This document shows, one piece after another, positions 12,801 through 35,172 of a stretch of DNA of 64,000 bases. The stretch lies in NCBI RefSeq assembly GCF_032854445.1, contig NC_088301.1, positions 22,313,808-22,377,807 on the forward strand, written 5' to 3'. A program made the translations under genes and the position numbers. Source of the stretch: Liolophura sinensis. Its lineage: Eukaryota > Mollusca > Polyplacophora > Chitonida > Chitonidae. Numbering within the stretch: the first letter of the stretch is position 1; every line of letters starts with the position of its first letter. The notes under the pieces were generated by a model. That model ran no database searches and was not told the origin of the DNA. It was given only the letters and a program-made list of their open reading frames with translations.

Positions 12801-15800
12801 TAGACGCTGTTGTGTGTTTCATAACACTCACTGGGCAATAATGTGGAGTCGAGTCTACATCAACCGTCTCGTACTGGGTAGCACAATCTACGGTGTTTAC
12901 TGTGAAGTCCTTCTTAACTGTTGTTGGGCGCACCCGGCACGTCGGTGCGGCCGAGAAGTCATCAACGGATTGGTCGGATTGTGGACAATGGAGTTCATCT
13001 GTGGATGTTGACGAAGAACTCATGCGCGCCAAAGTGCTTGGATGGTCATCATCTGAAGAGTAACATTTAGCTTTCATCGTGGTAGACCTACGGGCTACGG
13101 GCGAGGACTTGGTTGGGACCGGGGTCTCTTCCGCCGTCATAAACTGTGGAAGGCATATGTTCCGGTAAGATTCACTCAGAACTTTATTCATGGTGGCATT
13201 AGGCTGTTGGGTTGTCCTAGTGATGCCACTGGAAGACGAAGAACTCCTTGAGCAGCACAATGCTGATGGGCATAGGTCGAATGACCTCTCAGCAAAACGC
13301 CTGGCTACGTTTCGTAGCCTAGGGAGCCAACCATGTTTCAGGACCTCCTGTAACAGAAATAAATTACACCATCTAGTCCACAGGGTTAGGGGCATTGTTC
13401 TTTATATGATGATAACACAGCATTTTGAGTATGTCTAGACCAGTTGTGACATATAAATTGCAATTAACATTACTGCATTTTCTTTTTACCTCGTAAGAGG
13501 GAAGGTCTGTCAGCTACCTGCGGATGGTCGTGGGTTTCCCCAAGGCTCTGCCCGGTTTCCTCCCACCATAATGCTGGCCGCAGTCGTAAAAGTGAAATAT
13601 TCTTGAGAACGGCATAAAACACCAATCGATTAAATAAATAAATCTTTTTACCTAATTCTGCCTAAGCCATGGAGCTAGAGGGCGTGTAAATTGCTACCAT
13701 GTATGGTTTTACATGAACAGTTAGAATAATACCCTGACCCTCCTAAACTGATAGGAGGCCTTGTTTCACCGTTTACGTGTGGCCATTTGCCAGCTATCCT
13801 ACTGTCGCCGCTGCTCTGGCTTTACTCTCTATGCTGTACGTGTTTAATTATATTACTTACGTTTTGTACTGAATTGATTAAATTAAGTAGATGAAAAGTG
13901 AAAAGGAGGGTGATTGGTGGAATTATTGGAGTGTTTGTATGCCTTTTTTTGTCAAACCAGTATTCATATCTCATCTGTTTTCTTATAAGTAGTATCAAAT
14001 AATAATTTAAATTTGCTTATAAATGTGCAAATACCAAAAAGAGAAGAAACACTTGACAATTTACAGGCGCATTAGAAATACAATCTTTCCATTTTATAGC
14101 CAATTTTTGGATAGTAACAAACTTAACTTGCATCCATGCCAGTAAATGCATTAATTAATTTTTGTAAATTTAATGCCTAACTATTTGAAATAGTTAGAAA
14201 CTACTTAGACACACTTCCTGCACAGAAGCAAAGATAAATGCATTGGTAAACATTGTTGTTTAAGCGGTTGTTCAAGACTGATCTACTCTTTTCGTCTACC
14301 ATTTCCAATGTAGACAGAAGCATTATAAGTAGTTTTGTGGTGATATTTTACATCAAATGGGATGAGCCTGTCAGTTGGGCGAGTTGTAGTCAGGCATTAT
14401 GGAAATGAGTATATAGATGTGTATTGGCTGAGATCAGACAGATTAATTATTGATGTTTGCTGTTACAGTGCAAAACGTATGAATATTTGCAGGAGGTATT
14501 GCCTTCAGCATTTTTTTTTTTTTTGAGATAAACTTCCATGATTGGTTCAACAATATGTGTTCACCAGTTACATGGGTTCCATTCTGCAGGACGGAATGAG
14601 GATTTATAAGTATATAACTTTGTTAACCATGAAAATAAAAAAAATAAAAAACCCATCAATATGGATTTGATCCCTAACTAAAAAATTGTGTGGATATAAT
14701 GATGTTAAAGGGAAATTGTGCAATGTTATATTTCCTGGATGTTTAAACCGACAGGATACATGAGGAGAATGCTACACAAACAAATCCAGGATTTATAAAC
14801 GGCTAGTAATGTATATGAGTATACTTAAGTTTACCAACTCATACCTATGTTTGACAATTTCTGGTTATATTATTATATCCTTTTAAATGAGTATTTTTCT
14901 TTAAATTCAGAACCTGCATCAAACTGTGGAAGTTTAATTTAATGTACTTATTAGACATTCAACTCCAAAGCGTTTTTATATTGTTTACACAATGCATAAA
15001 TGTCCATATGAGTTACTCTCCACCCCACCCACCCCCCTCCCCAAAATAAAACTGAAGAACAAAATAAACAAAACAAAAACAGAGCAGACCATATGAGAAC
15101 GGAAGGAGGGGGATAACTCTATCGATAGCCCTATACATTATGGCACCTCCCCCTCCCCCAACACAAACACACCCACCGAAAAAAAATCTCCGAAAAGGGG
15201 AAGTGAATAATTTTCAATTGCTCCGAACCTACTGCTGATGGAAATTCAAAGTATTCATAAAACATAATGCATCACGAATAGTATGTAGATATATACCGGT
15301 ATTCAGAAAAAAATATGTATCAGTTCATAACTTTTCTGGAACAGTTTTAGGTCGTTGAAAGAATATACCAACGTCCATGCACAATATGTCCATGTATATG
15401 CTAAGCATTGAAAATACCAATGGAATCCGCAACTCTTGTGAACAACAACATGCCAAGATCACGGTTAACATTTACTAAATAATATCGTAATATACATTCA
15501 TCGAAAGCGTGCGGCTCGACCTTAATCTAGGACACATCTCTATGGCAAATGACGTCACGGTGACGAATGCGCGAGGCTTGAAGAGTGGGAGGAGCGGTGA
15601 ATTCAAAAACACTCTGAATGAGAGTAGCCAGATTAAGCGTTAAAACTTCACAACTGAAGTCTTTCAGTGTCCTGACCGATAATCGTCGGGTTATGAAAAT
15701 ACAGCAGCATAATGTCTGCGATATTTAAAAGGTATGGTCTTTGGTTTCTTCTGGGACTCTGGGACTGTGTCATGGTGGATGATGCAAGGCTGACTTATGT

Positions 15801-16955: not shown

Positions 16956-19202
16956 CCCAGGGTTGTCCCATTGTCATCGCTAGGGAGGCGTGTCAGCATA
17001 TCGGCTAAGTTTACTCCGATATGAAGATGCTTAACGTAGCTACATTTTATTACCTACTTTTTTGTTGATGTTTTTAACTCATTTGGTAGGAATCCCCTTC
17101 TAATAACCGAAGAAAAACAAAATTTAATCGAAATGCAACTGAATGTTCCTCCTTAGGTCTACAATGGACTCCACCGCATGACATCACAAACAGCTGACGC
17201 TTCGGAAACCGCTGTTTGAGTCCAATAAAATGCCTCGGCATATTTCGTCACTGTTACACGTCATAATGCTTGTGACGACAAAATGGCGTGAAACATTTTA
17301 TCGAGATTTTCAGAATACTGCACCGACACGCCTTTTGTTTTTCATTAATAAAGGCTCACGTGATTTTAAATTATTGCAGAAACATACTATATATAGTAAT
17401 CAATAACTTACAGATCACCTTGTTACTGCAATAGTATCAGATACTTATAGAATATAACAGAAATACTGCTGGAAGACAATGCTTTTGGCTATTTTTGAAA
17501 GGATTTTTTAGTGAAAACTGAAAATTGAAGACCTCATATCCCTTTATTTCGCAGTATTTTATGCGTATTATGCGGCAAATTGGGTCAATCATAAAATATT
17601 CTATATACTATTAAATATAAAAGAGTGTTCTGTGAGTACTAGGGATGCATTTAATAATAAATAGGCCTGTATAATGAACAAAAAAATGGAACCCTGTACG
17701 CTGTTTAACCTACTTACATGTTGGCCTACTATAAATGCATGTAGTTTAATTTTCAAGGTTTGAAAATGATCGATTACTGAATTATAAAGCATACAGTTCT
17801 CTGTGCTATCTCATACATAGTGCAGGTGTTTCAGGGATTTGTCATTATTTGGTGTTTGCTGACCTCTATACCACTGAATGAAGAGGCTTTAAAATAAAAG
17901 ACAACAAAAAATATAACCAAAATTATGTCAAAAGAGGGGTCCATACAGACCTAATCGGGCATAGGCATTATTATTACGAGCTTGGTAACCCTATAAAGCA
18001 GGGTGTATACTTTCGTATAGCTAATTAACAAAATGACTATCCACAGAAATAAAGGAGAAAAAAAACAAACAAACAAACAAAAAAACAAAACAGATTACAT
18101 GTATTTCACACTTTTAATTACATTTAAATTCCATTATATTTTTGTGATAAACAGAAATGATTAAGTGCTGTATTCAATGTTTTATAGTAACGACATAAAT
18201 ATAACTCCGTCAGCATGATTTTAAATGATAAGTTTCAATACAATTATAAGCTGGAAATTATGTAAAAATCAGTTAACTGTAAACCAAGCACAACCAGTTG
18301 TAAGAAAATAAAGATCACCCTTTTAAAACTAAAAAAATAAAAGAAACTGCCGCATAACAGCTAAATTATTATATATCTACCTCCATGCATGGGTGTTCAG
18401 TATGTACAATTTGTACCCAATACATTCAAAACAGGAATTATCATACACATACAAAAACTCAAAGTCTGAACATGCAAATGAACTCAATCATACAGTATTT
18501 ATCACTTTCTCAATTAAGCCAGACCCCTATAAACACACGGGTGACATAAATTCAAGAAATAATCCACAAACTAATTTTCAAATAAATAGCTTCCCAAAAT
18601 CTGGAGAAATTCTAAGAGCACAAGTTAGCAGATCATTTGATGAACTGATAATGCTGTCCAGGTTAAAATTTTTTGCAATGCCACATTAACTCTAACCAGA
18701 TTAGATCATTTATATTTCCGCTTTTCCTTCTATGCTAGGTTCTCAACTGGTGAGAGCCATGGTGGACAATAACCTGTTTGATGAAACCTGTTATATGTTT
18801 GAAGAGAAAACAATCGTTTGTAGCCATAGTGTCACGTGACTCTGGCTCACAAAGCCTAATGGCGACTCAGGTCCCAGCTGGTTCCATCATTGGTCTTTTG
18901 CAGTGCATGGGAATTATGTTACTATTGCAAATGGGGGAACGAACAACAGGCTACAAAGTTTTGGTCCAAAGCGTGAACGGTTCCGCAAACGTTCCCTCTA
19001 ACACATACGCTGATACGATATCAGTAAGCATGAAAATAAACATGGAAGGGGAAAATGCATTAAAATGTAAACGTCATATTTCGTATTTTACAGCGCGCGG
19101 GTTTCTGTTTCTTGCACTTGAATTCTCGAAGACGAAGAATATGAACAGCAAATGATAAGGCACAGTCACACACTATATTAGCAATGAACAGGTGATAGGA
19201 AA
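16956..19202. other. Intergenic region between kinase promoter and CHID1 3' end
   Basis: AT-rich. Reading frames at 18393-18689 and 18778-19155 on the plus strand are non-repetitive but unrecognised and lack splice or promoter support. The latter abuts the CHID1 3' end and probably covers its 3' UTR in antisense. The two minus-strand genes lie in tandem: CHID1 ends about 2.2 kb upstream of the kinase promoter. Confidence 0.4.
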
Positions 19203-22200
19203 TTAGAACAAGTCATAGAAATAGTCCAGTCCTTGTCCGAGTTCCCAGATGGAAATGCCGGTATTGAGCTCTTGTGCCAGCCCCAGTCTCTGCTGTATGG
19301 AGTACAGAGTGGGGTAATACACTTTGTGGTTGCCGTCATTCGCTCTGTAACAGAATTACATACACTGTATCACACACTGAACATCAGAAGAAAAAAAATC
19401 CGAACAGAAAGACTAAAAACTGAAGCTACCACACGCTGGTCCACTTCGACAGAATGGAGTATCCTAGTGATTAACATGCACTTTTGTGGACGAAATTTTA
19501 GGTCAATTAGGGTAAGTCGATTTTAACGATCATTTAGGGAATGCAATGTCTGCATCAATTAGGATAAATCTGCTGGTGGACTAATGTTGATAACTAATGT
19601 CAACTAATGTTGACTATTGTTTTACTGGCATTTAGAAGTTGGCACGGAAGTACACTAGACAAGGCATTACTTATGAATTTACAACTTCTTGGTTTATTGT
19701 CACGACGTTTCGATGCAAATATTAGCATCGCTGTCAAGTGAATGATTGACTAGTAATGTTGACTATTGTTTTAATGTTATTGTATGTTAAATGTGATGAC
19801 AAAACAGGTGAGGTAAATTGACAAGTGTATTCAACGGTTACGTGAGACCATTTGCCAATTATAACCCTGTTGTCGCCGCTCTGGTTTTACTATCTAAACT
19901 GTATTAAATTGTCTTTTTTTTATATACACACACCAAACGAAAGAAATACAGACCATAACTTCGACGCCAAAAGGCACAATGTCCTTCTTGTGTTATGTCA
20001 CATTCATTGCATAAGATAAGTTTCATTTTAGCATTAGATTTGTTGACAATCAAGGCATGCAATTATTATAATGACTGCTAATGTCGCGGTACTGCTGAGA
20101 TACCTCTGACACTAGTTGGGTAAAACTTGATCACTTTGATTAAAGCCCAGGTAAAGTCTGGCACAAAAAAATCAAACATGGGGTATAAAATTGCTACCAG
20201 TGAATGTAAAACAACTGCTAAATGTTTAAAACTTACTCTGAATATACACACTGGAATTTATGCATTTATAAAATACGCATTCCATAGTTCAACAACAACT
20301 TGAATACAGGTGACACTTACTTGTATTCAATCACATGCTCCGCCTCGTTTTCGTTCCAGGTGAATTTGGGCTTGTGTCGTTTGAGAATTTCAATGTACCT
20401 GATAACGAAATAAAGATTCTGAGAGCATAAAGTTCAAAATGAAATAAGAGATGTATATTTCAATTTTTATGATATATGAGGGTTACATGAAAATACCAAA
20501 ACAGGAAATTTTTGTATATGTATGTACATTTTTACTGTTTACTGCAGTCTAAATTAATACAACATTTTCTGACAGGTCGTGATGTGTACTACCATGACTG
20601 TTAAACGCTGGTGCATATGCAAGGTTACATATGGGGGTTACATGAAAATACCAAAACAGGAAATTTTTGTATATGTATACATTTTTACTGTTTACTGCAG
20701 TCTAAATTAATACAACATTTTCTGACAGGTCGTGATGTGTACTACCATGACTGTTAAACGCTGGAGCATATGCAAGGTTACATATGGGGGTTACATGAAA
20801 ATACCAAAACAGGAAATTTTTGTATATGTATGTACATTTTTACTGTTTACTGCAGGCTAAATTAATACAACATTTTCTGACAGGTCGTGATGTGTACTAC
20901 CATGACTGTTTAACGCTGGAGCATATGCAAGGTTACATATGGGGGTTACACGAAAATACCAAAACAGGAAATTTTTGTATATGTATGTACATTTTTACTG
21001 TTTACTGGAGGCTAAATTAATACAACATTTTCTGACAGGTCGTGATGTGTACTACCATGACTGTTTAACGCTGGAGCATATGCAAGGTTACATATGGGGG
21101 TTACATGAAAATACCAAAACAGGAAATTTTTGTATATGTATGTACATTTTTACTGTTTACTGGAGGCTAAATTAATACAACATTTTCTGACAGGTCGTGA
21201 TGTGTACTACCATGACTGTTAAACGCTGGAGCATATGCAAGGTTACATATGGGGGTTACATGAAAATACCAAAACAGGAAATTTTTGTATATGTATGTAC
21301 ATTTTTACTGTTTACTGCAGGCTAAATTAATACAACATTTTCTGACAGGTCGTGATGTGTACTACCATGACTGTTTAACGCTGGAGCATATGCAAGGTTA
21401 CATATGGGGGTTACATGAAAATACCAAAACAGGAAATTTTTGTATATGTATGTACATTTTTACTGTTTACTGCAGTCTAAATTAATACAACATTTTCTGA
21501 CAGGTCGTGATGTGTACTACCATGACTGTTTAACGCTGGAGCATATGCAAGGTGGCGAGTTTTCATCCAAACTGTGCCGTTTCTATCCACCAGAATTCTG
21601 TGGGTGGAAATCTATCCTTTTTTTTAAAAAAAAAATCAGGTTGTAGAAAAAATATGATATATGAAATTAAAACCGGATGCGGAGATTCAATGCGATTTAT
21701 GTACATGGATATATATGGTAGGTTCATAATTACATTGCCCTTCCACGCAACTTACAGGGAATGAGACCTGCACTGAGGTCATCTGTAACAGAAAATAAAA
21801 CTCACTGATGAGACACAATCGGTCCTCCACCTCCTGGGTAAAAGTCATTCCCATAAAAGTTCAACCCTAACAATAGTTTCTGTCTCTCTGGTGCCCGATC
21901 GTCCGGTACTAGGTTCTCCACACAACGTCTTACCCAGTCGATAGGGCTGTTTGGACCAGGGCTATGTAATGTAAATGTAAATGTTAAATGTGATGGCAAC
22001 ACAGAATCGCAGCCAAAGTGCCACGTGACTTTAGGCTCATGAAACTTGTTCGAAGATAAAACGATCAAGTCATTCTAAATCAGTGACGTCTAATACACTC
22101 CAATTAACATCACTGTGTTTGTTTTACCTAATTTTGCTGAAGCCACGGTGCTACGAGACTTTAATGAAATTAAATGAAAAGTTATACTAAAACCCTAACT

Positions 22201-25200
22201 CAGGTGAACTGACAGGAGGCCAGATTTGACCGAATACGTGTGACCATTTGCCAACTTGTAACACTCTTACGTATAGCTTTTTCTCCCCAGGCTGTAGTCT
22301 TTTGTATTATAACACAATATAGTTAATGCCTTTAATATTTCATCGTAGCACATACGTGGACACAAGTATACTGAACTTTTACATATGCCTCAGCATATAC
22401 AAGTATAGGTCTTCCATGGTTAGTTAAGAAATTTATGACCTTAAATTCTGAAGTGGTGGTAAGTTGCACTTCAGATTCAAGGGCTCACGTTACAAAAATC
22501 AGCAAGCGTTCGAATTACCAAATCTCAGAAGTTTACTCAGATTTTCTTACACGAAATCATCTCTGCACGAAACTGATCAAAGCCTCAAACATCATGAAAA
22601 AAAAAGTTCTTACCTGTTTGGATTGGAATAGTCATACGTCATTAGACTGAAACCGTCAATGACTGTTGATAAAGCGTCGAAGTCAGACTTCTGAAACATT
22701 CCCTGGACGTTGCTGTAACATAGAATACATCAATGTATGCCCTGAATTTAGCAATGGGTTTATATATATTCCACGTTCCTTCAATACCAACGCAGCTTGG
22801 ATCAGGAATGTCTCGTTCGAAGTGCCCGTTCACTTAACGACTGCTGCATTTGCCCAATGGTTGCGGCTTCTTCGAAGAGGTAGTCGCGCCTTTTGACCAA
22901 TCACATGCGAATGTGAAAAAGTAGGTGGAATTCGATGTTTTCTCCTTGAAATCTTTCTCCGTTGTTTTTTTTAACGCAGGTTGTCTATATATAGCAGTGG
23001 TTTGGTACAGTGAAGATATAATAGACCAAATCCACTGCTATGCATGGTAAACAATGTATGGAGATAAAACATTTCCGTTACCTTGAAGTAGTTAAAAAGT
23101 GAACCAAGAACCATTTGCTGAATATTTCGGTGGATGGGAAACGTTATCCTGATCCGACGAACATTCTCTAAACATGCCAATAGATTTACCATCTCAATTA
23201 TCTCTCCATACAAAGCGACTGCGATATCAAATTGACGACAACCTACGGAGGGTCGTGGGTTTCCCCCGGGCTCTGCCCGGTTTCCTCCCACCATAATGCT
23301 GATCGCCGTGGTATAAGTGACATACTTTTGAGAACACCGTGAAACACCAATGAAATAAATAACCAAATCAAACTGATGACACATGCAGAAACCCCATTGT
23401 GATTTACATTTTCATTCTTGCACTGGTGTCTCCATATATACGCTTCTACAGGTGGTTCTGTCAGAGATTTGTCGCCCCATGTAAACTCAGGAGCAAGTCT
23501 ATAGCCAATAAGATTATACATGATAACGGCTTACCCTTTATATAAAGGAGGAGGTATCACCAGGATAAGGGTCTTCTTCTTGGCGTGGAAGCTTTCTGCC
23601 ATGTGTTCCAGGAAATGCACAAGTTCTCTGTTAGGGGATTTTAAACGGGACAAACACAAATTCATTCACTGTAAATGTATATTTATACTATTTACATTGC
23701 CACCTTGCATCTTGTTGAATTTCCTTTTTCTATATACCCTGGTTTATATATACATAGTACTTATTATAACGCGTGTGTATTAAGTATATTTATTTATTTA
23801 TTTGATTGGTGTTTTACGCCGTACTCAAGAATATTTCACTTATACGACGGCGGCCAGCATTATGGTGGGTGGAAACCGGGCACAGCCCGGGGGAAACCCA
23901 CGGCCATCCGCAGGTTGCTGGCAGACCTTCCCACGTACGGCCGGAGAGGAAGCCAGCATTAGCTGGACTTGAACTCACAGCGACCGCATTGGTGAGAGAC
24001 TCCTGGGTCATTACGCTGCGCTAGCGCGATAACCAACTGAGCCACGGAGGCCCCCTGCATTAAGTATAAAGTGCACAGATAATTCAACCTATAGACAATT
24101 ATACATATACATGCACATCACAGACCATACGGTACCTTTTCGCCTGGCCTCCGAGCTGTGACCAGATTTCTATGACCGCACCGCCAAACTTTTGTTCCTA
24201 CAAAAAACATGTCTACGTCAGTTTAAAGGACAGACGTTTCTTGAAGCGTATTTATTGTGAAGTAGCCTTTAGTCAAGTGCACTTCATGTCTCTAAAACAT
24301 GACTCACGAGGGGGCCTCCGCGGTTCAGTTGGTTAGCGCGCTAGCGCAGCGTAATGCCTCAGAAGCCTCTCACCAATGCGGTCGCTTTGAGTTCGAGTCC
24401 AGCTCATGCTAGCTTCTCCGGCCGTATGTGGGAAGGTCTGTCAACAACCTGCGGATGGTCGTGGGTTTCCTCCATCACGTCTTCACAAACCTGTATAGAG
24501 TTAATCATGGTGTCTATACAGTCCTCCATCACGTCTTCACTGACCTGTATAGAGTTAACCATGGTGTCTATACAGTCATACATCACGTCTTCACTCGCCT
24601 GTGTGGAGTTAACCATGGTGTCTATACAGTCATACATCACGTCTTAACCTGTATGGAGTTAATCACGGTGTCTATACAGTCCTCCATCACGTCTTCACTG
24701 AGCTGTATGGAGTAAATCATGGTGTCTATACAGTCCTCCACCACGCCTTCACTGACCTGTATAGAGTTAACCATGGTGTCTATACAGTCCTCCATCACGT
24801 CTTCACTCACCTGTGTGGAGTTAACCATGGTGTCTATACAGTCCTCCATCACGTCTTCACTCACCTGTGTGGAGTTAACCATGGTGTCTATACAGTCCTC
24901 CATCACGTCTTCACTCACCTGTGTGGAGTTAACCATGGTGTCTATACAGTCCTCCATCACGATTTCACTAATCTGTATGAAGTTAATCAAGGTGTCTATT
25001 CAGTCCTCCATCACATCTTCACTCACCTGTGTGGAGTTAACCATGGTGTCTATACAGGCACCCATCACGTTTTCACTGACCTGTGTGAAATTAACCATGG
25101 TGTCTATACAGGCAGCCATCACGCTTTCACTAATCTGTATGAAGTTAACCATGGCGTCTATACAGTCCTCCATCACATCTTTACTGACCTGTATGAAGTT

Positions 25201-28200
25201 AACCATGGCGTCTATACAGTCCTCCATCACGTCTTTACTCACCTGTATAGAGTTAACCATGGTGTCTGTACAGTCCTCCATCACGTCTTCACTGACCTGT
25301 GTGAAGTTAACCATTGTGTCTATACAGTCCTCCATCACGTCTTCACTCACCTGTATGAAGTTAACCATGGTGTCTACAGGGCCCCATCATGTCTTCACTG
25401 ACCTGTAGGGAGTTAACCAAGGTGTTTATACGGTCCTCCAACGCATCTTCACTTACCTGTATGAAGTTAACCATGGTGTCTACACAGTCCTCCATCAAGT
25501 CTTCATTAGTAAACACAGCTTTGTAATCTGCCCCTGTCCACCCATCAAACAAAATCCGAGGAACTGTCAACAAAGAGTTTGGCAGATTGTCGATTACTGA
25601 AATGAATTTTTCGCGCCTGGCGGATAAGTATATTCACCATATTGCAGATGGTAGTTTTTCTTCAAGACCAGAAGCAAAGAAAAACCTCGTCTGTCAGTCT
25701 CGAGAACTGGTACGTACAGGACCTGATAGTATTTTAACACAGTTTTGAGCACAAAAAAAACCTAAAGCGGTTAAGTGCACGTACAGTGTATGTGGTAATT
25801 ATTTGCTCTGGAATGTTTTGAAATACAAACCGGTACATAAACTTCATTCAAGTCCAGGTTATGCCGGCTTTCTGTCTGCACTGGAAGGTCTGTCAGCAAC
25901 ATGCAGATGGCCGTGGGTTTCCTCCAATAATAATGCTGACCACATTGGTACAAGTGAATAATGCTGCGTTCGGTACCACGCCCACGAGACGTATGTTCGA
26001 GTTCACGACATTTGAATCCGCTTCTTTGGCGGATCGTAGATACCACTTATGGACTCGAAAGTTATCTGAAGGATCCAGTTTGTAACCTTCACCTAGGAAA
26101 GTTTCGCAAGGATGCATGAAAAGTACACTAAGATGTCGGCTAACAATTTATAAATCTTCTCATGCCGTAAAACAACAACAGCAAACAAACTACTCGTTGC
26201 AGGCAAAACAGTAGCATGAACTGCCTACGCAGTTGCCATCTTGTTTCGTAGGCACGCCTGGCGAAACTGTCCCAATGATTTGACCAAATTAACGACATGG
26301 ATGATGTTTACGAGGGTTTGAGTCGGGCGTAAACTTATAAACTACATGGATCGATGTAATTATACTTGCCGATCTTGGTGTTCCTTTTGGAAGTGACGTC
26401 TGCAATCCACCCTGTGTACAAGAAAAGGCATAATACCAACTGCTATTACTATGACAGCTTACAATTACATGACAAGCCTTAAATCTGGAACATGCATTTA
26501 TCAAAACGAGCTACGCGCCATAATGCGAATGATGTTCTTACTGACGATAATCACGAACTAAACCTAACTGAGGATGCCCAAATAGAATGGATTGATGGGC
26601 TTTATATCTTGGGAACAACAGCCTTAAGCTTGTCCAGAATCTATATAGATAAGCGCAGATTGGGCGATAAAGTCCATCTCAGTGTGTTCCATCGATCACA
26701 CTCATATAACAAAATAAGATTATTAAAGTGAATATAAACATAGGTAAGATATAGGACACAGTTATCACAGAAAAATATGTAAAGAATTCTACAAAATTTT
26801 GAAAATCGAGAAGAAGTTTAGCATTTGGGACACGCCACTGACGAACAATTCACTCCTAGTAACCATGTTGAAGAAGCCCCTATGAACTTTGCCAATCACT
26901 AGCGCTCAGAGCGTAACGTGGCTGTCACGTCAAAAAACCTATTAGCTCTCGATTGTCAGTGTGGTTTCTTATAGTGGATAGACAAATACTGATGCAACAA
27001 CTGGACTTTGCGGTTAATTTAAGTGTTACACTGATGAATTTTTAGCCACACATTTATGAACAGGGAACTGAGGATGGCTGCCCGAGTCACAATGCGTAGC
27101 CTACATGTTGGGCTGGATAATACAGTAACTTGTCAGGGTGTGCCAATTCGGTCAATGAACCTCAAAGGGAAAGCCAACGATTGTCAGGTGGATGTACATG
27201 TAGCTGCATAGACAGTTTCCTTGTATAAAATAATGTTTACAATCAGAAATTATATTGCAAACGAGATTTACCAGAATCAATTTCACTTTTTATCTGGATG
27301 GGTTATTGCTGGAAGGCCAGATTCTCAATGGAATGGAAAATCAACACGAGTTCTGTCCACATATTCAAAAACGGGAGCACAACGGATTAGTGCTGTACCG
27401 TCCGTTCGGTAAGATTAAAAATCATGGTATTATGACTGCATGGCTAGAAATTTTATTCTTATTTATTCTGGATGCCAATAGCCGTCCATTTAGTATCGTC
27501 ATTTTCAGTTTGTTTGTTTTTTTTGTTTTTTTTTGGGGGGGGGGGGGTTCTGTTCATTTTCAAAGAAGCGCAATTTTGGACACTGAGTCATTTTAAGGAC
27601 ATATGGGAGGGGGATTCTTGTAGATGCATGTATAAACATCGATGATACGGCACACAAAAAAACATTTCAGATGTTGACATTCGTCTTAACTCGATCTTTG
27701 AAATGCGTATGAAGGTATATATGAATAAAGTTCTGGGCGTGTCACCTCTGTCAATGTCGTGGCCGCCTTGCATGACGAAAGCTCCCCCTGGCATCCTCTT
27801 AATCTGCAGCCACACCGGAGAGACGTAGGTGAACTTGGCACCGAACAGTTTGGCCACATCATATCCGTGATTATTCCACTGGAAACAGTATCATGCAATA
27901 TCATCAAGGACACGCTGAACGTAAAATCATTAATACACACGACGTGGGGAGACCCGGAATCAAACACGTGGAACTTGCTGGTCCCGTGTCCGTGTAATGT
28001 GGCTGGGTGAGGTGTCATGGGTGAGGTGTCATGTCTGGTGTCTCCGACATAATGCTTCAATGGCGACAGTGCTTTGGCGGCATTAACGTCGTACTTAACA
28101 ATTTTCCAGGCATATGACGACGAAGGAGTCTTTAGAGTGCATGCACGTGGTATGTGCCTTCTTGTTGCAGGACGGATTTCCACCACTCTTATATCTAGTG

Positions 28201-31200
28201 CTGTTTCACTAAAACGACTTACCGAAGGCAAGTAAGCCGACCCGCCCGAGCCATTATACTGGTACGGGTCAACCAGTCGTTGACCCATACACCCTTGAAG
28301 GAGAAAACATAAAAATGATGCCAAAATCAGATGAAAGAGCGTCAAAACTTATTTGCAAATATGATCTTGAATACTTTTTTTTTCAAGAGAAAAGGGTATT
28401 TGAAAATATTTTTGTATGATGGGTATTTGGGACCAACTTTTGGTATTTATCTTTGTTGCATAATAAGCTTTTAAATAGGGATGCGCTGCTTGTCTAATAA
28501 ATTCATTTGAATGTAAATTTGTTGTTTATATCGAAACAAATGCATTTAACCTAAACTGAGGTTGAGGTTTTATGAACATATTAAAAACATAAATATGATC
28601 GTAAATGAGGTTTAATACATTTGTTAGCTGAAAAAAAGAAAAACAAATTCTAGTGCAAAAATATTTATTAAACCTGTGTTACATCATTATGACATTATTA
28701 AACAAAGACTATAAATACCAACAGGTGGTACCAAATACCCACCATACAAAAATTATTTTCAAGTGTCTCTTTCTCCTTAAGGAAAAATCGGAAAAAATAA
28801 TGACGACCACATTCAAAAATAACTTTTCGCACTCTTTCATCTGATCTTTGTCATTTTTATGTTTTCTCCACCTTTAATGCTTAATGTCAGGGGAGGAAGG
28901 TGCAGGTTCCTCTCTAAGGTTATAGGTGTGACCCAACCGAGGATTGGTCATAACCGAGCCATCGGGTCCGGGTCCTGTCACAAGAAGACACAGTATATCT
29001 ACACACATCTAATGACTCCCCGTAATCATACTACTGAAAAGTTGCTAAGTAACACGTAAATCTCAAGCATACATGCGTACACTATTATCGAAACAACATT
29101 TTTGGTACGCTTTTAATGTTAAGATACGAAATATTTCTAATAACCACTGATCAAGATAGATAGATAACTGTAGGTCTGCGTGTACATCTACATGTAAGCC
29201 AGAATTTAAACCTTTAATTTAAAATAATTGGCTGATTGGAATACCAAACTTATCTAATTAATACAATATCATACAATATATTTTGTAAATGCACTAACTT
29301 TATTTTTATTCAATCAACGCTAGTTAAAGGACAAGACAGCACCTGATTAAAACATATTTCCATCGAAAGCAGAAAAATAAAAAAAATAAAAGAATCAAGC
29401 TTTCTAAAAAGTATCATACTTTATAATTTTACTGAGATTTCACCGAATACCACTCAGAACAAAATGACAACACTGCACAAATGACTGGTCGATGCAACCA
29501 TCTTCGCAGGTTGCTGACAGACCTTCCCACTTACGGCCGGAGAGGAAGCCAGCATGAGCTGGACTTGAGCTCACAGCGACCGCATTGGTGACAGGCTCCT
29601 GGGTCATTACGCTGCGCTAGCGCGCTAACCGACTGAGCCACGGAGGCCCCCTTATCCAATCAAATACGTGGCTATCAGATTGCACGGCCTAAGCTATGAC
29701 GTAGCCTTTAACCACCCACTCTATGAAGTGACAATATGACAACACAGAATTACTGCATAATACATAATGTTTAGAATGCTTACATCGAATTAGTTAGGTG
29801 TAGCCGAAGTGCCATTTTACAAAGTGTTGTGTTTATTTAATTTATTTATTTGATAGGTGTTTTACGCCGTACTCTAGAATATTTAACTTATACGACGGCG
29901 GCCGGCATTGTTGTGGTAGGAAACCGGCCAGAGCCCGGAGGAAACCCACGACCATCCACAGGTTGCTGGCAGACTTTCCGACATACGGCCATAGAGGAAG
30001 CCAGCATAAGCTCGACTTACAGCGACCGGATTGGTCAGATGTAAAATCAGCTGATTTACAAGCTGTGTGAGATTCAACTGAGGAATCACAAGTTATGCCA
30101 CACAATAACATACCATCTCGGCCCAAACCGCATTCATCCGCCTAAATACAGTTTTTTTGTCCTTCATTTTCGCATTTAGTCAGCAGTTTCTAAATTACAA
30201 ATATCGAAGTCAGTGCAAAATTCATTAGGGATGCCAAAGATTTGTGAGAATGAGAAGACGGCATCTCGTCGGGCAACGCTTGAAATTAATTCTTATGATA
30301 TAATTTTTTTTCTCTGAATTTATTACAACTGTAGAATTTAATTTTGCTCCCTCGTCTATGTCGCAAACAAAGGATTTTTTTTCTGTTTTCTTTTATAAAA
30401 TACAATGAATTTCTTGAAACGCCGTCTACAAATTGAGGTGAACATCCGAGATAACTAGGTCAGCACTGCTTTCATTTTAGAAGTCACAACTTTAAAACTG
30501 AAGCATAAAATCAAGCCACAGTCGAATGTCTAGATCAGTCTCAGTGGTGCTTAAATTTATTTCCATTTGTTTCAGAATTGAGCATGCATCTAGTTATACC
30601 ACAATCTTATTTGTAAACATTTAACTGGGATCAAAATCATCAGCACAACCCTTCTGGAGGCTACGAGCTGAACCAGGAATACTCGGAAAGCAGGAATAAA
30701 GCCGTGCATCTGCAGCTAGGCTATTTAAACAGGGTCGCTGAAGTTCTTTGTAAATGAGATACTAAGCCTACTGTATCAACAGTTCAAACAGTGGGCCGTA
30801 CGTGGGAAGGTCTGCCAGCAAACTGCGGATGGTCGTGAGTTTTCCTGCCCGGTTCTATCCCACCATAATGCTGGCCGCCGTCGTATAAGTGAAATATTCT
30901 TGCCTACGGCCTAAAACACCAATGAAATAAATAAATAAATAAATAAAGTAGTGGGAGGAATATTCTTCCAGTATGTCCAGTTTCCTAGATCCTATGTCCA
31001 GTTTCCTAGAAAACTATATTTATCACTTTGGCCTTCATCGCCGAAGGCCACAACCTTTATCGCCCATAGGCTACTGATTAGACTATTATACCAAATATAC
31101 CTTCGACATTAGAGAGCTAAACGTGGTGTCATCTTGCTCTCGATAATGGAAACGAGCTGAAGCTGTTTGAAGACGAAGTTTCACTAAAGTTTTACTGAGT

Positions 31201-33472
31201 TAAAAAAAGTCTAAAAAAAAAAAAATTTAATGCCGGTTCAGGATACTATGAATGGTTGTCTTTCAGTGGACATAAACATTAGTCAGGTGCTGTCTTTCAC
31301 TCTAAAATTAAATATATACCGAATTGACGCTGATTGGATGTCAGTGGAGATAGGCTTCTTGGGTTAACTCTGCCACTTTAGTCACGCATAATCTCTTGGC
31401 GATCTTTTCAGCCAATCAGCTATGTCCCTTTCAGTGAAACTATCCAACGAACTGAATATGGTCTAACGACACAGTCGAATTTAAGGAGGGTATTTTTGCT
31501 ATTGTTGTTGTCGTATATCCTCACCGGTGTGACGTAACCCAGAACGTCTCCCCCAAACCTCTTCTGCTCCCTCTCGGTCTCACAGAAAGCCGTGTGCTGT
31601 TTTAAGATTTCCTGAGCCCTGGTCGTCGCTGACACCAGCCCGCGGTCAACGGCGTTCTTCTCCACCTGCTAATTATTCACAATTCACCGTTTTATTCGTC
31701 ATCATCATTATTATTTCTTGATTTGTCTGACTAAGTGTTTTGGGTTTTTTTAAAAAGTCAAATGGGTACTTTCATTCGGTTCCAAGCTGATCTGACGATT
31801 GTTCTCTTGCAATGAATGAGTAGGTCTATCTTGAAACCAGTTTACTCATTGGGTGCGCTTGCGCAAAGCGATCGTAGGCTAAATAGGGCCTGCTCTGAAT
31901 TACTTCTATTGCCATACGACAGCGACGATCAAGTAACGCTATGCCCGGTTTCCTCTCACCATAATGCTGGCTGTCGTCGTGTTAGTGAAATATTCTCGCG
32001 CACGGCGTAAAACACCAATCAAATGAATAAGTAAATAAATAAATGACGTAACGCGAGATTAATTGTTGACGCGTGAATCTACTCGAAGTAGTAAAGTAGC
32101 AAAGGCGCGCATGAACAACAGACTACACACTTTACTTTAGGCGGGGAAAAGTTCCCTATGATATGAGAGCGAATGAGAAAACCGGACTGTCACTAAACTT
32201 TAGAGGGCAACTTGTGATAGAGGAGCGATTTCGTGAACTGATGAAAAGGTAGAAATTCCTCTGGCACCCATGACCCATAATGAGGCAGACCATGAAAATG
32301 CCAGGTGAAAGTGAATGGAATGATATATTACTGGCCCACAGCGGTGTTAGCTGTCCTCTCTGAATGTTCTGTGCTGTGAAATCGATGTGATGTGAATCGC
32401 TCAAAGCCATAGCACCTTCTTCATCAATAAAAGTGCTTCGTGGAAGTCAATGAAATGGTCTATTACTGTGAAAGGGAAATCATCGTGCCTTGTAATGTTT
32501 CTCTCATGGAAAACTTTGATTTCGACATGGGAGGCTGCATATTTGCCAAAAGGGGGTAGGTCCGGATGCTAAAGAAGAGATGTTAATATCAGTAAAAACG
32601 TACAGCACAGAGTAGGCAGCGATGATAGTGTGACAGCTGTGAAAAGGTCGCAAATAACCGGTAAAATACGGCCTCTTGTCAAATCTTGTCAGTCAGGGTT
32701 TTATTCTAACTGTTCATGGAAGTGTATAAATAGTATCAATTTACACCTCCCCTAACAGCATGGCTTAATCAGAATTAGGTAAATAGCACGCACTGATGTT
32801 AATTGCAATCTATCAGACATCACTGGTCTACAATTACTCCAAATATTTTTTCACATTTTTTACACAGGGTCGAATTTTTTACCATTATTAATGATATGTG
32901 AACGGATAATACTCAAAAATAACCACACAGAGTAATAATATTTCATTATTAATATTATAATCACTGAATTCCTGGTTCCTGAATTTCAGCGTTCTTGGTT
33001 CTGTCCCTCTTTTCTGTAGGCGAAGACAGTTCGACAGCACATAGTAATTCTGCCCTTATAAAAATTCCTGTAACAGAACTTCAGCACACGTATACATGTG
33101 TATTTGTGGTGGACAAAAACTTCATGTTGTTGAAGGAAGGAAGGCCACACCATTACCATTGGTGTTTTACGCCGTACTCAAGAATATTTCACTTATACGA
33201 CGGCTGCCAGCATTATGGTGGATGGAAACCGGGCAGAGCCCGGGGGAAACCCACGACCATCCGCAGGTTGCTACAGACCTTCCCACGTACCATAATATTT
33301 ATATGGAAGACCTTTCAAAATATTAATCTAGATGTAGATATGGTACCTTTTTCTTCGTCTTGCTTGAACTGCTTGTTTTGGAGAGGGTAGAGTCAGTCTG
33401 TATAAAGAGTAAGAAGGTGAGGACAATCTGAAACCATATTCTCCAGCCCGAGTCCGGTATCACGACCTTCAT
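19203..33472 (-). CDS. CHID1: Chitinase domain-containing protein 1 (GH18, SI-CLP), complete 11-exon gene
   Basis: Coding exons on the minus strand: 33472-33347, 31665-31525, 27878-27746, 26411-26370, 25563-25457, 24197-24136, 23627-23535, 22712-22614, 21961-21806, 20398-20321, 19344-19203. Phases agree at every junction and give 392 residues; human CHID1 has 393. A hydrophobic signal sequence (about residues 8-28) ends before [10 protein letters not shown]. Diagnostic blocks: [61 protein letters not shown], and the C-terminus [20 protein letters not shown]1 is a secreted/lysosomal lectin-like GH18 protein that binds saccharides. The catalytic strand reads FGGAVIEIW: the Glu position is kept but the preceding Asp is Gly, so hydrolysis is doubtful. 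Intron 4 has a GC donor. A 5' UTR acceptor (TTGTACAG) just before the ATG suggests a further upstream exon. Confidence 0.95.
19795..19915 (+). repeat. Dispersed repeat R3, partial copy
   Basis: Contains GTGAGACCATTTGCCAATTA and TGTTGTCGCCGCTCTGGTTT, matching the right part of the R3 copy at 13436-13850. It lies in CHID1 intron 10. Confidence 0.5.
20480..21553. repeat. 155-bp satellite, seven tandem copies in CHID1 intron 9
   Basis: Seven nearly identical units, with starts at about 20480, 20635, 20788, 20943, 21098, 21253 and 21408. Landmarks are GGGTTACATGAAAATACCAA, CATTTTCTGACAGGTCGTGA and CTGGAGCATATGCAAGGTTA. The second unit is 153 bp; the others are 155 bp. The array fills most of the 1.4-kb intron 9. 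It is followed by an imperfect palindrome (21586-21608, CCACCAGAATTCTGTGGGTGG). Tandem cores of similar size occur in bivalve pearl/Helentron-like elements, a possible but unproven identity. Confidence 0.95.
21554..21805. other. 3' flank of the satellite in intron 9
   Basis: Includes the palindrome at 21586-21608 and a T/A run at 21618-21635. It is possibly the terminal segment of the element that carries the 155-bp core. No exon is seen before the donor of CHID1 exon 9. Confidence 0.4.
22070..22270 (+). repeat. Dispersed repeat R3, copy
   Basis: Contains AATTAACATCACTGTGTTTG, TTTACCTAATTTTGCTGAAG and CGTGTGACCATTTGCCAACT, in the same order as 13436-13850 but without a SINE insertion. It lies in CHID1 intron 8. 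Confidence 0.65.
23228..23372 (+). mobile_element. SINE family 1, 5'-truncated, antisense in CHID1 intron 7
   Basis: Body GAGGGTCGTGGGTTTCCCCC and CTCCCACCATAATGCTGATC, tail TTTTGAGAACACCGTGAAAC, then AAATAAATAACC. Orientation is opposite to the CHID1 gene. Confidence 0.8.
23789..24058 (-). mobile_element. SINE family 1, full-length copy with target duplication
   Basis: A complete tRNA-derived SINE reading on the minus strand: head GGGGGCCTCCGTGGCTCAGT (A box), B-box region with GAGTTCAAGTCCAGCT, body, and tail GGCGTAAAACACCAATCAAA plus AAATAAATAAATA. It is flanked by the direct repeat ATTAAGTATA at 23779-23788 and 24059-24068, which is the target-site duplication and fixes both ends. It sits in CHID1 intron 6 in the gene's own orientation. 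This is the reference copy for the family here. Confidence 0.95.
24311..24472 (+). mobile_element. SINE family 1, 5' half, truncated against the 54-bp array
   Basis: Has the tRNA-like head (GGGGGCCTCCGCGGTTCAGT), B box (GAGTTCGAGTCCAGCTCATG) and body up to CGTGGGTTTCCTCC, where it passes directly into the CHID1-derived array. The missing 3' half suggests a rearrangement joined them. Confidence 0.85.
24473..25456 (-). repeat. 54-bp array made of the CHID1 exon 5 end plus its 5' splice site
   Basis: On the minus strand each unit runs GTGAGTGAAGACGTGATGGA, GGACTGTATAGACACCATGG, TTAACTCCACACAG. This is the last 54 bp of exon 5 (with ACTAATGAAGAC where the repeat has GTGAGTGAAGAC). About 18 copies follow the authentic exon. 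By my reading six carry a perfect CAG|GTGAGT, about six carry CAG|GTCAGT, one a GC donor (CAG|GCGAGT), and the rest are damaged (AG|AT, AG|CT, GTTAAG, GTTTGT). One unit (near 25375) is 2 bp short, which breaks the otherwise open frame. Overlapping long frames on both strands are by-products of the 54-bp period. Confidence 0.93.
25865..25962 (+). mobile_element. SINE family 1 fragment in CHID1 intron 4
   Basis: GGAAGGTCTGTCAGCAACAT, GATGGCCGTGGGTTTCCTCC and ATAATGCTGACCACATTGGT match the SINE body. Head and tail are missing. Confidence 0.65.
26412..27745. other. CHID1 intron 3
   Basis: No repeats of known family were recognised. There is a T/G-rich homopolymer stretch at about 27508-27547 (poly-T followed by poly-G). 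Short reading frames at 26492-27596 are unsupported. Confidence 0.4.
28065..28290 (-). mobile_element. SINE family 2, diverged copy in CHID1 intron 2
   Basis: The antisense counterpart of the complete family 2 copy at 40592-40929. Shared landmarks on the minus strand include GCTCGGGCGGGTCGGCTTAC and GGAAATCCGTCCTGCAACAA. It produces a 219-codon minus-strand frame (27686-28345) that is not a gene. Confidence 0.75.
28291..29323. other. CHID1 intron 2, unassigned part
   Basis: AT-rich. At about 28985-29075 there is a weak relative of the SINE family 2 tail (CTACTGAAAAGTTGCTAAGT). Nothing else is recognised. Confidence 0.35.
29500..29652 (-). mobile_element. SINE family 1, 5' half, nested in the TIR element
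   Basis: Minus-strand head GGGGGCCTCCGTGGCTCAGT, then GAGCTCAAGTCCAGCTCATG and the body to GTCAGCAACCTGCGAAG. The 3' half is absent. Confidence 0.85.
29832..30030 (-). mobile_element. SINE family 1, nested in the TIR element
   Basis: The tail side GGTGTTTTACGCCGTACTCT is at the left, then ACGACGGCGGCCGGCATTGT, and the tRNA-related part is at the right end. It interrupts the TIR element between blocks that are contiguous at about 43480-43510. Confidence 0.85.
30790..30952 (+). mobile_element. SINE family 1, 5'-truncated, nested in the TIR element
   Basis: GGCCGTACGTGGGAAGGTCT through CCATAATGCTGGCCGCCGTC to the tail GCCTAAAACACCAATGAAAT and (AAAT)n. It interrupts the block that ends AGTTCAAACAGTGG and resumes AGTAGTGGGAGGAATATTCT. 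Confidence 0.88.
31938..32044 (+). mobile_element. SINE family 1, 3' end only, in CHID1 intron 1
   Basis: TGCCCGGTTTCCTCTCACCA, then the tail GCGTAAAACACCAATCAAAT and AAATAAATAAAT. Confidence 0.85.
32640..32845 (-). repeat. Dispersed repeat R3, inverted copy
   Basis: On the minus strand it carries ATTGCAATTAACATCAGTGC, TTTACCTAATTCTGATTAAG and CATGAACAGTTAGAATAAAA in the order of the 13436-13850 copy. It lies in CHID1 intron 1. Confidence 0.65.
33155..33292 (-). mobile_element. SINE family 1, truncated, just inside CHID1 intron 1
   Basis: ATTGGTGTTTTACGCCGTAC, the body GGAAACCGGGCAGAGCCCGG and CCATCCGCAGGTTGCTACAG. The head is missing. Its end lies about 55 bp from the donor of the first coding exon. 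Confidence 0.88.
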
Positions 33473-35172
33473 GCTGCCACCTGTACAACAACAACGGAGC
33501 ATTGTATTCGCGAATCAAAAGCCATTGTCCAGTCCTTTGCATGTACGTGTTTGTATAGCTCGTGATGTTAATAGATTCATGTGTATCACATATAACATTA
33601 GAGTGGATATAGGTACAAAAAGATGTGAATCTAAGGCCCCGATTAATGCTCCTGCGAACATTTCTTACATAATTGTTCTTATTTATACTGAGCACAAAAA
33701 TATTCATATATAATGTCACGCTAATTACAGGAGAGAAAACACCCGTGGGCGTGCATATACCTACGTTCTGAGACTAACCATTCTTGAACGGGCTTTGGTA
33801 CTGAAATGCGACTTTTGATATACTAGGCCTATATAATGAACGAATTGGTCCCTCAGAGAATGATGTGTTGGATCCAACTTTCAAGCCATAATTGGTGAGT
33901 TTTTGCTGAGTGAGAATAATATTGTATTTATTTCACTTCAGTGGGACATAGGCTACTTCTATGCCCTATTCTGACGCATTTCATAAAGCCATGAAAATAA
34001 ACCCGAAACCTTCGTGCCCCAGCGGAAGACGCAATTTCGTGCCTGAGATGGCAGGCCTCTTAACAAGAGGTAGGTCTTCGGTTATCTTCGGTACGAGTCT
34101 TACCGAAGGCCACAGCCGAGCCAAGACCGAAAAGGGTCTGGAGTTAAGCTAGCGACCCTACTGACCAAGGGTGGCAAGGCCAACAAGAGCCCGCGAGTTA
34201 GCTACACTGCCTAACCTTGGGTTATTTGTTCGTAAAGGCTATAACGGTGTTAAGACGTGTACTGGTACGTTATCAAGGCATGCGTTGTCCACATTCAGGC
34301 ACGTGTACCCTATACAGATCTTGGCGTAACCCGTTATCATCATCATGGTGTGATGGCACACAGGCTTGACGTGACGTGTAACAAGTATCAAAATCTTTAC
34401 CTAATGACAGTTATTCATACAAGCGATCTAGGAAGACTGCGTCGTCGGCCACATCACAAAAAGGGTTATCACTGATACGCGCCTCGACAGGATTAACTCC
34501 GCCACGTGCAATTTTAATACCCCTCAAAACATGATCTTAAACTTGCCCCCGGATCTTATGAAACCCCACAGCATTTAGCAAACTGACTCTTTGATACCTT
34601 TTGCTTGTTTTACTTGCACACATGCACAGCTTTGTATTGAAAAATAAACACATCGAAAACAGAGGATGCTACTAGAGATATTTCTTGTCACGGCGCGTAT
34701 GGAAATGCAGGTTACTTAAAATTTTGTATGGAACAGTGTGGACGGAATGGTATAGATGAATTCTGACGCTAAAAATGGCTATTACCCGTCTCTTCACGAC
34801 CCCTTTCCAAATAAAAAGACGAAAAAGAAGGAAATTAAAATACAATACCCCCAGTCTTATAAAAGGTTAAGTTGTCTGATATTTAAAAAATTTAAATGGA
34901 GAACAAGTTAAATTAATTATTGACACTTATCAATATATTTGCGTCTTGAATTAATATGGTTTCGAGGTTTAACTATTTACAGTCTTATGGCACTTAATCA
35001 GTTGATGGCTTCAAACGTCATAACTTGAGTTCTTGTCGCAGTAACCATATTTCTCCTTCCATTAAACTCTGTATCCTTTACCACAGATCCGTAGATCCAT
35101 TTTCGGTTTTATTTGCTGGGTTTGGAATTTTTATCGCCTGCTGAATACAACAACAACATTAACAAAACAGAC
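33473..35172. other. Head-to-head intergenic region of CHID1 and PPP1R8
   Basis: The two ATGs are 1.7 kb apart and divergent, so this segment should contain both promoters and 5' UTRs. I found no TATA box or CpG-rich core I would defend. Reading frames at 33393-33719 and 33961-34475 are unsupported. Confidence 0.45.

Follow-up and report, generated by a model that had tools for sequence, protein, structure and literature searches.

How does a gene stay readable when the intron behind one of its exons is filled with copies of that exon's own 5' splice site? The question is raised by the gene for CHID1 in the 64,000-nucleotide stretch of DNA analysed here (the window), which lies on contig C7 of a 609-Mb genome, an animal's by its genes, and in which intron 5 opens with a tandem array built from the end of exon 5 and the donor that follows it. 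The choice of one 5' splice site among equals by the spliceosome is an open question, and most work on it has relied on small sets of engineered donors. We consider it probable that the CHID1 array is a neutral minisatellite, born at the exon 5/intron 5 boundary and tolerated through use of the 5'-most donor, and that it is one member of a class recurring in this genome.

Gene and array are both read on the minus strand. Tandem Repeats Finder gives a single array at 24468-25505 with a period of 54, 19.3 copies and 87% matches, and wrap-around alignment resolves it into 18 full, nominally 54-bp intronic units (25456-24491) and a 23-bp stub beginning with GTTTGT (24490-24468), which follow exon 5 directly. 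Sixteen of the units measure 54 bp; a 2-bp deletion leaves unit 2 with 52 bp, and a 4-bp deletion leaves unit 16 (24648-24599) with 50 bp. The exon end is itself the first copy, its last 49 bases (25505-25457) matching the unit at 46 of 49 positions (94%), and each unit begins like the intron start and finishes like the exon end (GTGAGTGAAGAC...TTAACTCCATACAG). The alignment thus bears out the original prediction that the end of exon 5, with its donor, had been amplified about 18 times within the intron, and the self-alignment that it proposed recovers the exon as the source. Its count of decoys also agrees: CAG stands at all 19 junctions, the real donor included, and is followed by GTAAGT once (the real donor), by GTGAGT six times and by GTCAGT six times. 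The remaining six junctions read ATTAGT (twice), CTCAGT, GTTAAG, GCGAGT and GTTTGT, so that GT is lost at three of the 18 intronic units and replaced by GC at one more, while GTTAAG and GTTTGT keep the GT in a poor context. The first two decoy junctions, with exon ends at 25403 (GTCAGT) and 25351 (GTGAGT), lie within 25349-25404, and three perfect CAG|GTGAGT decoys follow one another within 24800-24921 (exon ends 24919, 24865 and 24811). With up to two mismatches allowed, a 14-base donor probe has 16 matches in the window, none of them outside the real donor and the array; 100 shuffled sequences average 0.89. Units 11 and 12 are identical and the other units differ at up to 17 positions, as in recent local turnover; searches of the genome, whose counts are lower bounds, found no further copy of the unit or of CHID1 beyond this locus.

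Exon 5 (25457-25563, donor CAG|GTAAGT, intron from 25456) belongs to CHID1 as judged by its encoded protein; its start at 25563 was inferred from the acceptor-like ...TTGACAG|TTCC. Compared alone with human CHID1 (PDB 3bxw), it matches with E=0.0039, and joined at the first donor to exon 6 (24136-24197, minus strand, placed by protein alignment) it aligns without a gap to residues 143-200 of 3bxw with E=2e-9. The join is in phase 0, and the acceptor used, ...TTTTTTGTAG, lies outside the array. As the original prediction had stated, translation from the first decoy (exon end 25403) inserts exactly 18 residues in frame, and donors further on lose the frame across a 2-bp deletion. That deletion lies in unit 2, where an exon extended to any of the remaining 17 junctions meets a stop; the 50-bp unit at 24648-24599 restores the base count beyond this stop. 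Elsewhere in what by eye is the CHID1 gene region, a minisatellite of 155 bp x 7 (98%) occupies 20474-21553.

In a model of pairing with the U1 5' end in which pseudouridines are read as U, the predicted duplex has -11.6 kcal/mol for the real GTAAGT, -11.7 for GTGAGT and -7.5 for GTCAGT. The statement that the decoys equal the real donor thus stands for the six GTGAGT sites and falls for the GTCAGT sites, which pair more weakly, so that six decoys rather than twelve rival the real donor. A regulated donor ladder, in which alternative donors would give either an 18-residue-longer CHID1 or nonsense transcripts that tune its level, draws on these six well-matched decoys and on the first decoy, which is in frame and repeats the last 18 codons of the exon. 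It also has a parallel in human IFI6, whose isoforms take two downstream repeat units as donors according to a citing paper. However, this single in-frame decoy is a GTCAGT and by the pairing model a weak donor, the remaining 17 junctions give a stop, and neither donor nor frame carries a sign of selection. We therefore regard a regulated ladder as unlikely.

The pattern of substitutions is that of neutral sequence. Across the 16 of 18 units that align without gaps, the 68 differences from the consensus comprise 19 synonymous, 47 nonsynonymous and 2 stop changes, where random placement of the same mutation types would give 20.0, 45.9 and 2.1, and they are spread over the codon positions as 24/21/23. 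Conservation of the donor motif in the CHID1 array does not significantly exceed that of positions picked at random (permutation p=0.14), and the motif ranks 13 of 54 windows. Because substitutions stand at expectation and the donor motif has no significant advantage in conservation, the array behaves as neutral intron sequence. Selection on donors was also rejected over a wider set: in none of the 16 arrays scored (15 of the 17 donor arrays sampled on contig C1, described below, and CHID1) is the motif the best conserved stretch, its rank running from 8 of 47 down to below every other window. A further proposal holds that the units encode, or once encoded, additional helices, in one long exon or as 54-nucleotide cassette exons; 15 of the 18 units are still open as 54-nucleotide segments of 18 codons. 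Their origin in a coding segment accounts for this openness, and we rejected a coding repeat since substitutions at the neutral expectation leave no synonymous excess and the 2-bp and 4-bp deletions break the frame. Of the readings considered, it strikes us as the most improbable.

The constancy of the junctions invites another thought, that splicing here might correct itself: a unit wrongly kept in the transcript (GT...TTAAC...CAG) would be a GT-AG stretch that could be removed in a second step, in a chain resembling recursive splicing. CAG is preserved at 19 of 19 junctions, TTAAC stands shortly before it in 17 of 19, and joining to an intact unit boundary recreates CAG|GT. Against this, the pyrimidine fraction before the unit CAGs is moderate (0.53-0.71); that of the real acceptor of exon 6 is 0.59, but includes a run of six T. 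Single 54-nucleotide units would moreover lie near the lower limit of animal introns, which also counts against this scheme, and we hold it to be quite unlikely.

The edges of the array bear on its origin. Exon 5 contains AATGAAGAC, and at a distance of 54 bp the intron start reads AGTGAAGAT; the two share the 6-bp identity TGAAGA, which could plausibly have seeded the first duplication. The microhomology had been put forward as TGAAGAC; a short repeat is indeed shared at the junction, but the first intronic copy reads TGAAGAT, so that the identity covers 6 bp and not 7. At the far end, a SINE-like repeat on the plus strand (24331-24472, name and bounds by eye), which we take from its look to be tRNA-derived, stops at GGAGGAAACC, where it meets the array. 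Of the seven other window matches to this stretch, six continue into a common tail and one has an altered tail. The repeat is truncated where the array ends inside it (24468-24480), while six of the other matches run into the common tail, and the array is therefore bounded by a second rearrangement. The match with the altered tail lies at 25922 in intron 4, about 360 bp upstream of exon 5 and in the same orientation. ARAGORN finds no tRNA gene in the window, and Rfam at gathering thresholds gives no match in 18000-34000.

Could intron 5 itself have arisen in this way? In the model of Rogers, tandem duplication of an exon segment bearing AGGT gives birth to an intron; the units do carry AG|GT, and a multi-copy precedent exists in fission yeast, where introns span several 24-bp AGGT duplicates, as cited in PMC4974935. 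The acceptor at 24198, however, falls past both the array and the SINE-like repeat and is no copy of the unit. The array thus occupies the donor side of an intron that has an acceptor of its own, and an origin of intron 5 from the duplication appears very improbable.

As judged from encoded homology, arrays of this kind recur at exon ends of other genes in this genome, a point that the original prediction had not raised. We sampled 22 donor arrays, comprising the 17 listed on C1 and five further on, the latter chosen because they lie on the plus strand, and L047 among them also for its coding-looking unit; in the C1 sample, a single array carries between 4 and 68 perfect CAGGTRAGT motifs. In 10 of the 22, an open frame with database homology runs into the array, and this homology reaches the donor or ends within one or two residues of it. 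The ten are an SNF2 domain (L028, 9e-6), an iron-only hydrogenase domain (L033, 2e-12), a Tsr1/BMS1 C-terminal domain (L041, 5e-11), 2-oxoglutarate dehydrogenase (OGDH; L034, 9e-20), an ABCC transporter (L039, 9e-16), a high-affinity choline transporter (L040, 1e-13), RNA polymerase III RPC1 (L038, 3e-7), UDP-glucuronosyltransferase (L050, 6e-21), glycoside hydrolase 31 (GH31; L048, 2e-12) and an FAA hydrolase (L051, 2e-4, 2 bits below the Pfam cut-off). Judged from their sequences, loci among those sampled would bear such names as BTAF1, CIAO3, BMS1, TBK1 and fumarylacetoacetase.

As in CHID1, the exon ends share bases with the units: 21 in L028, 35 in L033, 49 in L034, 28 in L038, 44 in L039, 37 in L040 and 42 in L041 (79-100% identity), 32 in L048 (97%) and 28 in L050 (89%), with the match in L051 seen by eye only. 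Taking as the class those arrays in which the last tens of exon bases and the donor form the unit and the array lies downstream on the sense strand, CHID1 and, by exon homology, 10 of the 22 belong to it. Residues expected of the following exon turned up downstream of the array at two of the seven loci searched, OGDH and BMS1, the stretches searched behind most arrays being short. The unit lengths of nine aligned sister arrays (48, 40, 52, 44, 52, 64, 59, 39 and 67) are in seven cases not multiples of three, so that use of decoys would often break the protein, and this also argues against a translated repeat. In the GH31 array (L048:1106-1301), a reading frame stays open across the 39-bp units in the portion of the array covered, and each unit could add 13 residues to the protein.

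Three of these genes separate the position of a donor from its strength, since the exon's own donor is off the consensus of the array copies: GTAAAT in RPC1, GTTAGT in the ABCC gene and GTATGT in the GH31 gene. If the first donor is used there, they would favour position over strength. The exon-like end at L047, which has 63 bases in common with its unit, likewise shows its own donor, GTAAAT, off the consensus of the array copies.

Is there more to such arrays than the abundance of minisatellites? On the simplest account, the genome is dense in minisatellites, some arrays fall on exon ends by chance and the donors are irrelevant; the window alone has 28 Tandem Repeats Finder rows in 64 kb, about ten arrays by hand count. 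One of these, 51 bp x 36 and 97% uniform, lies at 54345-56166. We counted, genome-wide, triples of perfect motif copies at steps of 39-69 bp, overlapping matches within an array being counted separately, and single motifs with copies inside arrays included. The donor motif CAGGTRAGT forms 1234 triples (504 + 730), whereas its one-base control CAGGARAGT forms 140, with singles about half as common (11062 against 19904), and the reverse of that control 102. The acceptor motif TTTTYNCAGG, of similar single abundance (20947), yields only 162 triples, and its reverse 39. The reversed donor motif TGARTGGAC gives 289 triples from 7580 singles, and the donor motif with only A at +3 gives 382 against 176 for its reverse. 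Per 100 singles, this amounts to 6.20 triples for the donor, 1.27 for the one-base control, 3.81 for the reversed motif and 0.77 for the acceptor.

In the first 19 Mb of C1, hand counts of distinct arrays among the matches listed give 17 donor arrays, 2 for the one-base control, 4 for the reversed motif and 2 for the acceptor; the donor count exceeds the pooled controls (17 vs 8, p=4e-4), the acceptor (p=2e-4) and the one-base control (p=0.015). Since the matches listed are about 1/12 of the total and gave 17 arrays, a very rough guess would put about 200 donor arrays in the genome. Of about 25 acceptor arrays counted by hand among the matches listed, four were looked at. In three of them every reading phase closes within about 20 codons downstream of the last acceptor matched, and in L045, the fourth, a single phase continues over 73 codons into additional copies of the repeat. 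These reading frames weakly suggest that acceptor arrays are not exon-derived.

Several of our results weigh against a special role for donors. The excess of the donor over the reversed motif is small per occurrence (6.2% vs 3.8% of singles), and in the first 19 Mb of C1 the two do not differ significantly in array count (p=0.27). The reversed control is not fully clean, an array of it at C1:92.96 Mb reading ACAGGTGAGTGGAC and hence being itself a donor array; this array lies outside the counted 19 Mb and therefore does not explain the p value. One of the four CAGGARAGT control arrays examined also adjoins an exon, encoding an SRCR domain (E=4e-13), so that the birth of arrays at exon ends is not confined to perfect donors. 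This control array (L054:640-900), chosen for CAGGAAAGT, begins at the end of the scavenger-receptor SRCR exon. Faster loss may affect acceptor motifs with long T runs and would then reduce their number. Donor arrays were sampled from one end of one contig and from five hand-picked places, and the exon is unconfirmed in 12 of the 22. Three of these (L030, L035 and L047) look exon-like by eye and gave no database hit, one L030 frame reaching only a sub-threshold DUF4547 (0.061); the exon-like frame of L035 ends upstream and has only 2 bases in common with the unit at the donor. No exon was recognised in the other nine (L026, L027, L029, L031, L032, L036, L037, L042 and L049), of which a single L026 frame was compared with Pfam, with no hit. 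Predicted folding of the CHID1 transcript might also set the real donor apart, the GU being unpaired with a probability of 0.46 there and of 0.13-0.44 at the six GTGAGT decoys, although the predicted accessibility of the whole nine-base site overlaps between them. RNA structure hiding the decoys was rejected as an explanation, the preference for the real donor in predicted folding being weak at most. The minisatellite density of the genome may explain part or all of the exon-end arrays, and a pure base-rate account is in our view quite possible, if short of probable, with the donor excess over the one-base control and the acceptor on the other side.

The reading that we prefer for CHID1, a neutral minisatellite at the exon boundary, can be set out as follows. 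The direct repeat TGAAGA, at a distance of 54 bp, would have let one boundary segment duplicate, and unequal exchange or slippage would have multiplied it, the copies then drifting neutrally. CHID1 protein would need only the 5'-most donor, kept beside the conserved exon, and the downstream decoys are most likely ignored or their transcripts destroyed. At other exon ends arrays may arise as they do elsewhere, perhaps through short direct repeats. A duplication that covers the donor would place new copies inside the intron and leave the old donor where it is; if the first donor to emerge is used, as we infer because the protein is continuous across the join of exons 5 and 6, such arrays would be harmless and free to grow. 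Copies made at an acceptor would land before the true site and might be chosen ahead of it. If the first donor is the one used, the neutral drift would thus be accounted for, and with it the rarity of arrays at acceptors.

A wider claim can be made only tentatively, and we doubt it more than we believe it: that such arrays form a genome-wide class in this animal lineage, in which donors, and not acceptors, can multiply freely since the spliceosome commits to the 5'-most donor on its emergence even where stronger copies follow, the asymmetry between the two being the footprint of this rule in dozens to hundreds of genes. The natural donor ladders behind conserved exons, such as those of OGDH, the BMS1-type ribosome factor and RNA polymerase III RPC1, offer tests of how the cut site is chosen, and should tandem duplication prove tolerable at donors but not at acceptors, a new view of the limits on intron evolution would follow. 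Apart from these subjects, the window contains an open frame of 1183 residues on the minus strand (9850-13401), the end of which looks by eye like a protein kinase.

Several known systems resemble the CHID1 array in part. The recursive splice sites, or ratchet points, of long animal introns consist of an acceptor-like end directly joined to a donor, CAG|GTRAGT, and share this motif with the array, which differs from such sites in having no clear polypyrimidine tract and in being made of many copies from coding sequence. Internal tandem repeats also change human genes in segmental duplications at exon-intron boundaries (PMC2812944), and the feature in common is that of boundary minisatellites able to alter gene structure; those arrays lie in recently duplicated human genes, whereas the present ones are intronic, on the donor side and in conserved genes, with CHID1 found at one place. 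Tandem duplication of AGGT is an established model of intron origin, and shares with CHID1 (PMC4974935) the making of new splice signals by duplication of an AG|GT segment, but in CHID1 the duplication added donors to an intron and not an intron to an exon. Lastly, the original prediction knew of no described class of minisatellite built from a splice donor, and this does not hold, since a minisatellite that supplies multiple splice donors to one gene, human IFI6 (6-16/G1P3), was reported in 1995 (Turri, Cuin and Porter 1995). CHID1 resembles it as a tandem array at the end of an exon that is itself the first copy, with GTAAGT, GTGAGT or GTCAGT at 13 of the 19 junctions. Compared with IFI6, the 54-bp unit of CHID1 contains about 49 bp of coding exon, all of its decoys but one break the frame or meet a stop, and unrelated genes of the one genome share the arrangement. 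Literature searches of open-licence PMC full text turned up nothing on splice-donor minisatellites as a genome-wide class, nor on a genome-wide set derived from exon ends. The donor-supplying minisatellite is thus already known, and what may be new is the genome-wide set that derives from exon ends.

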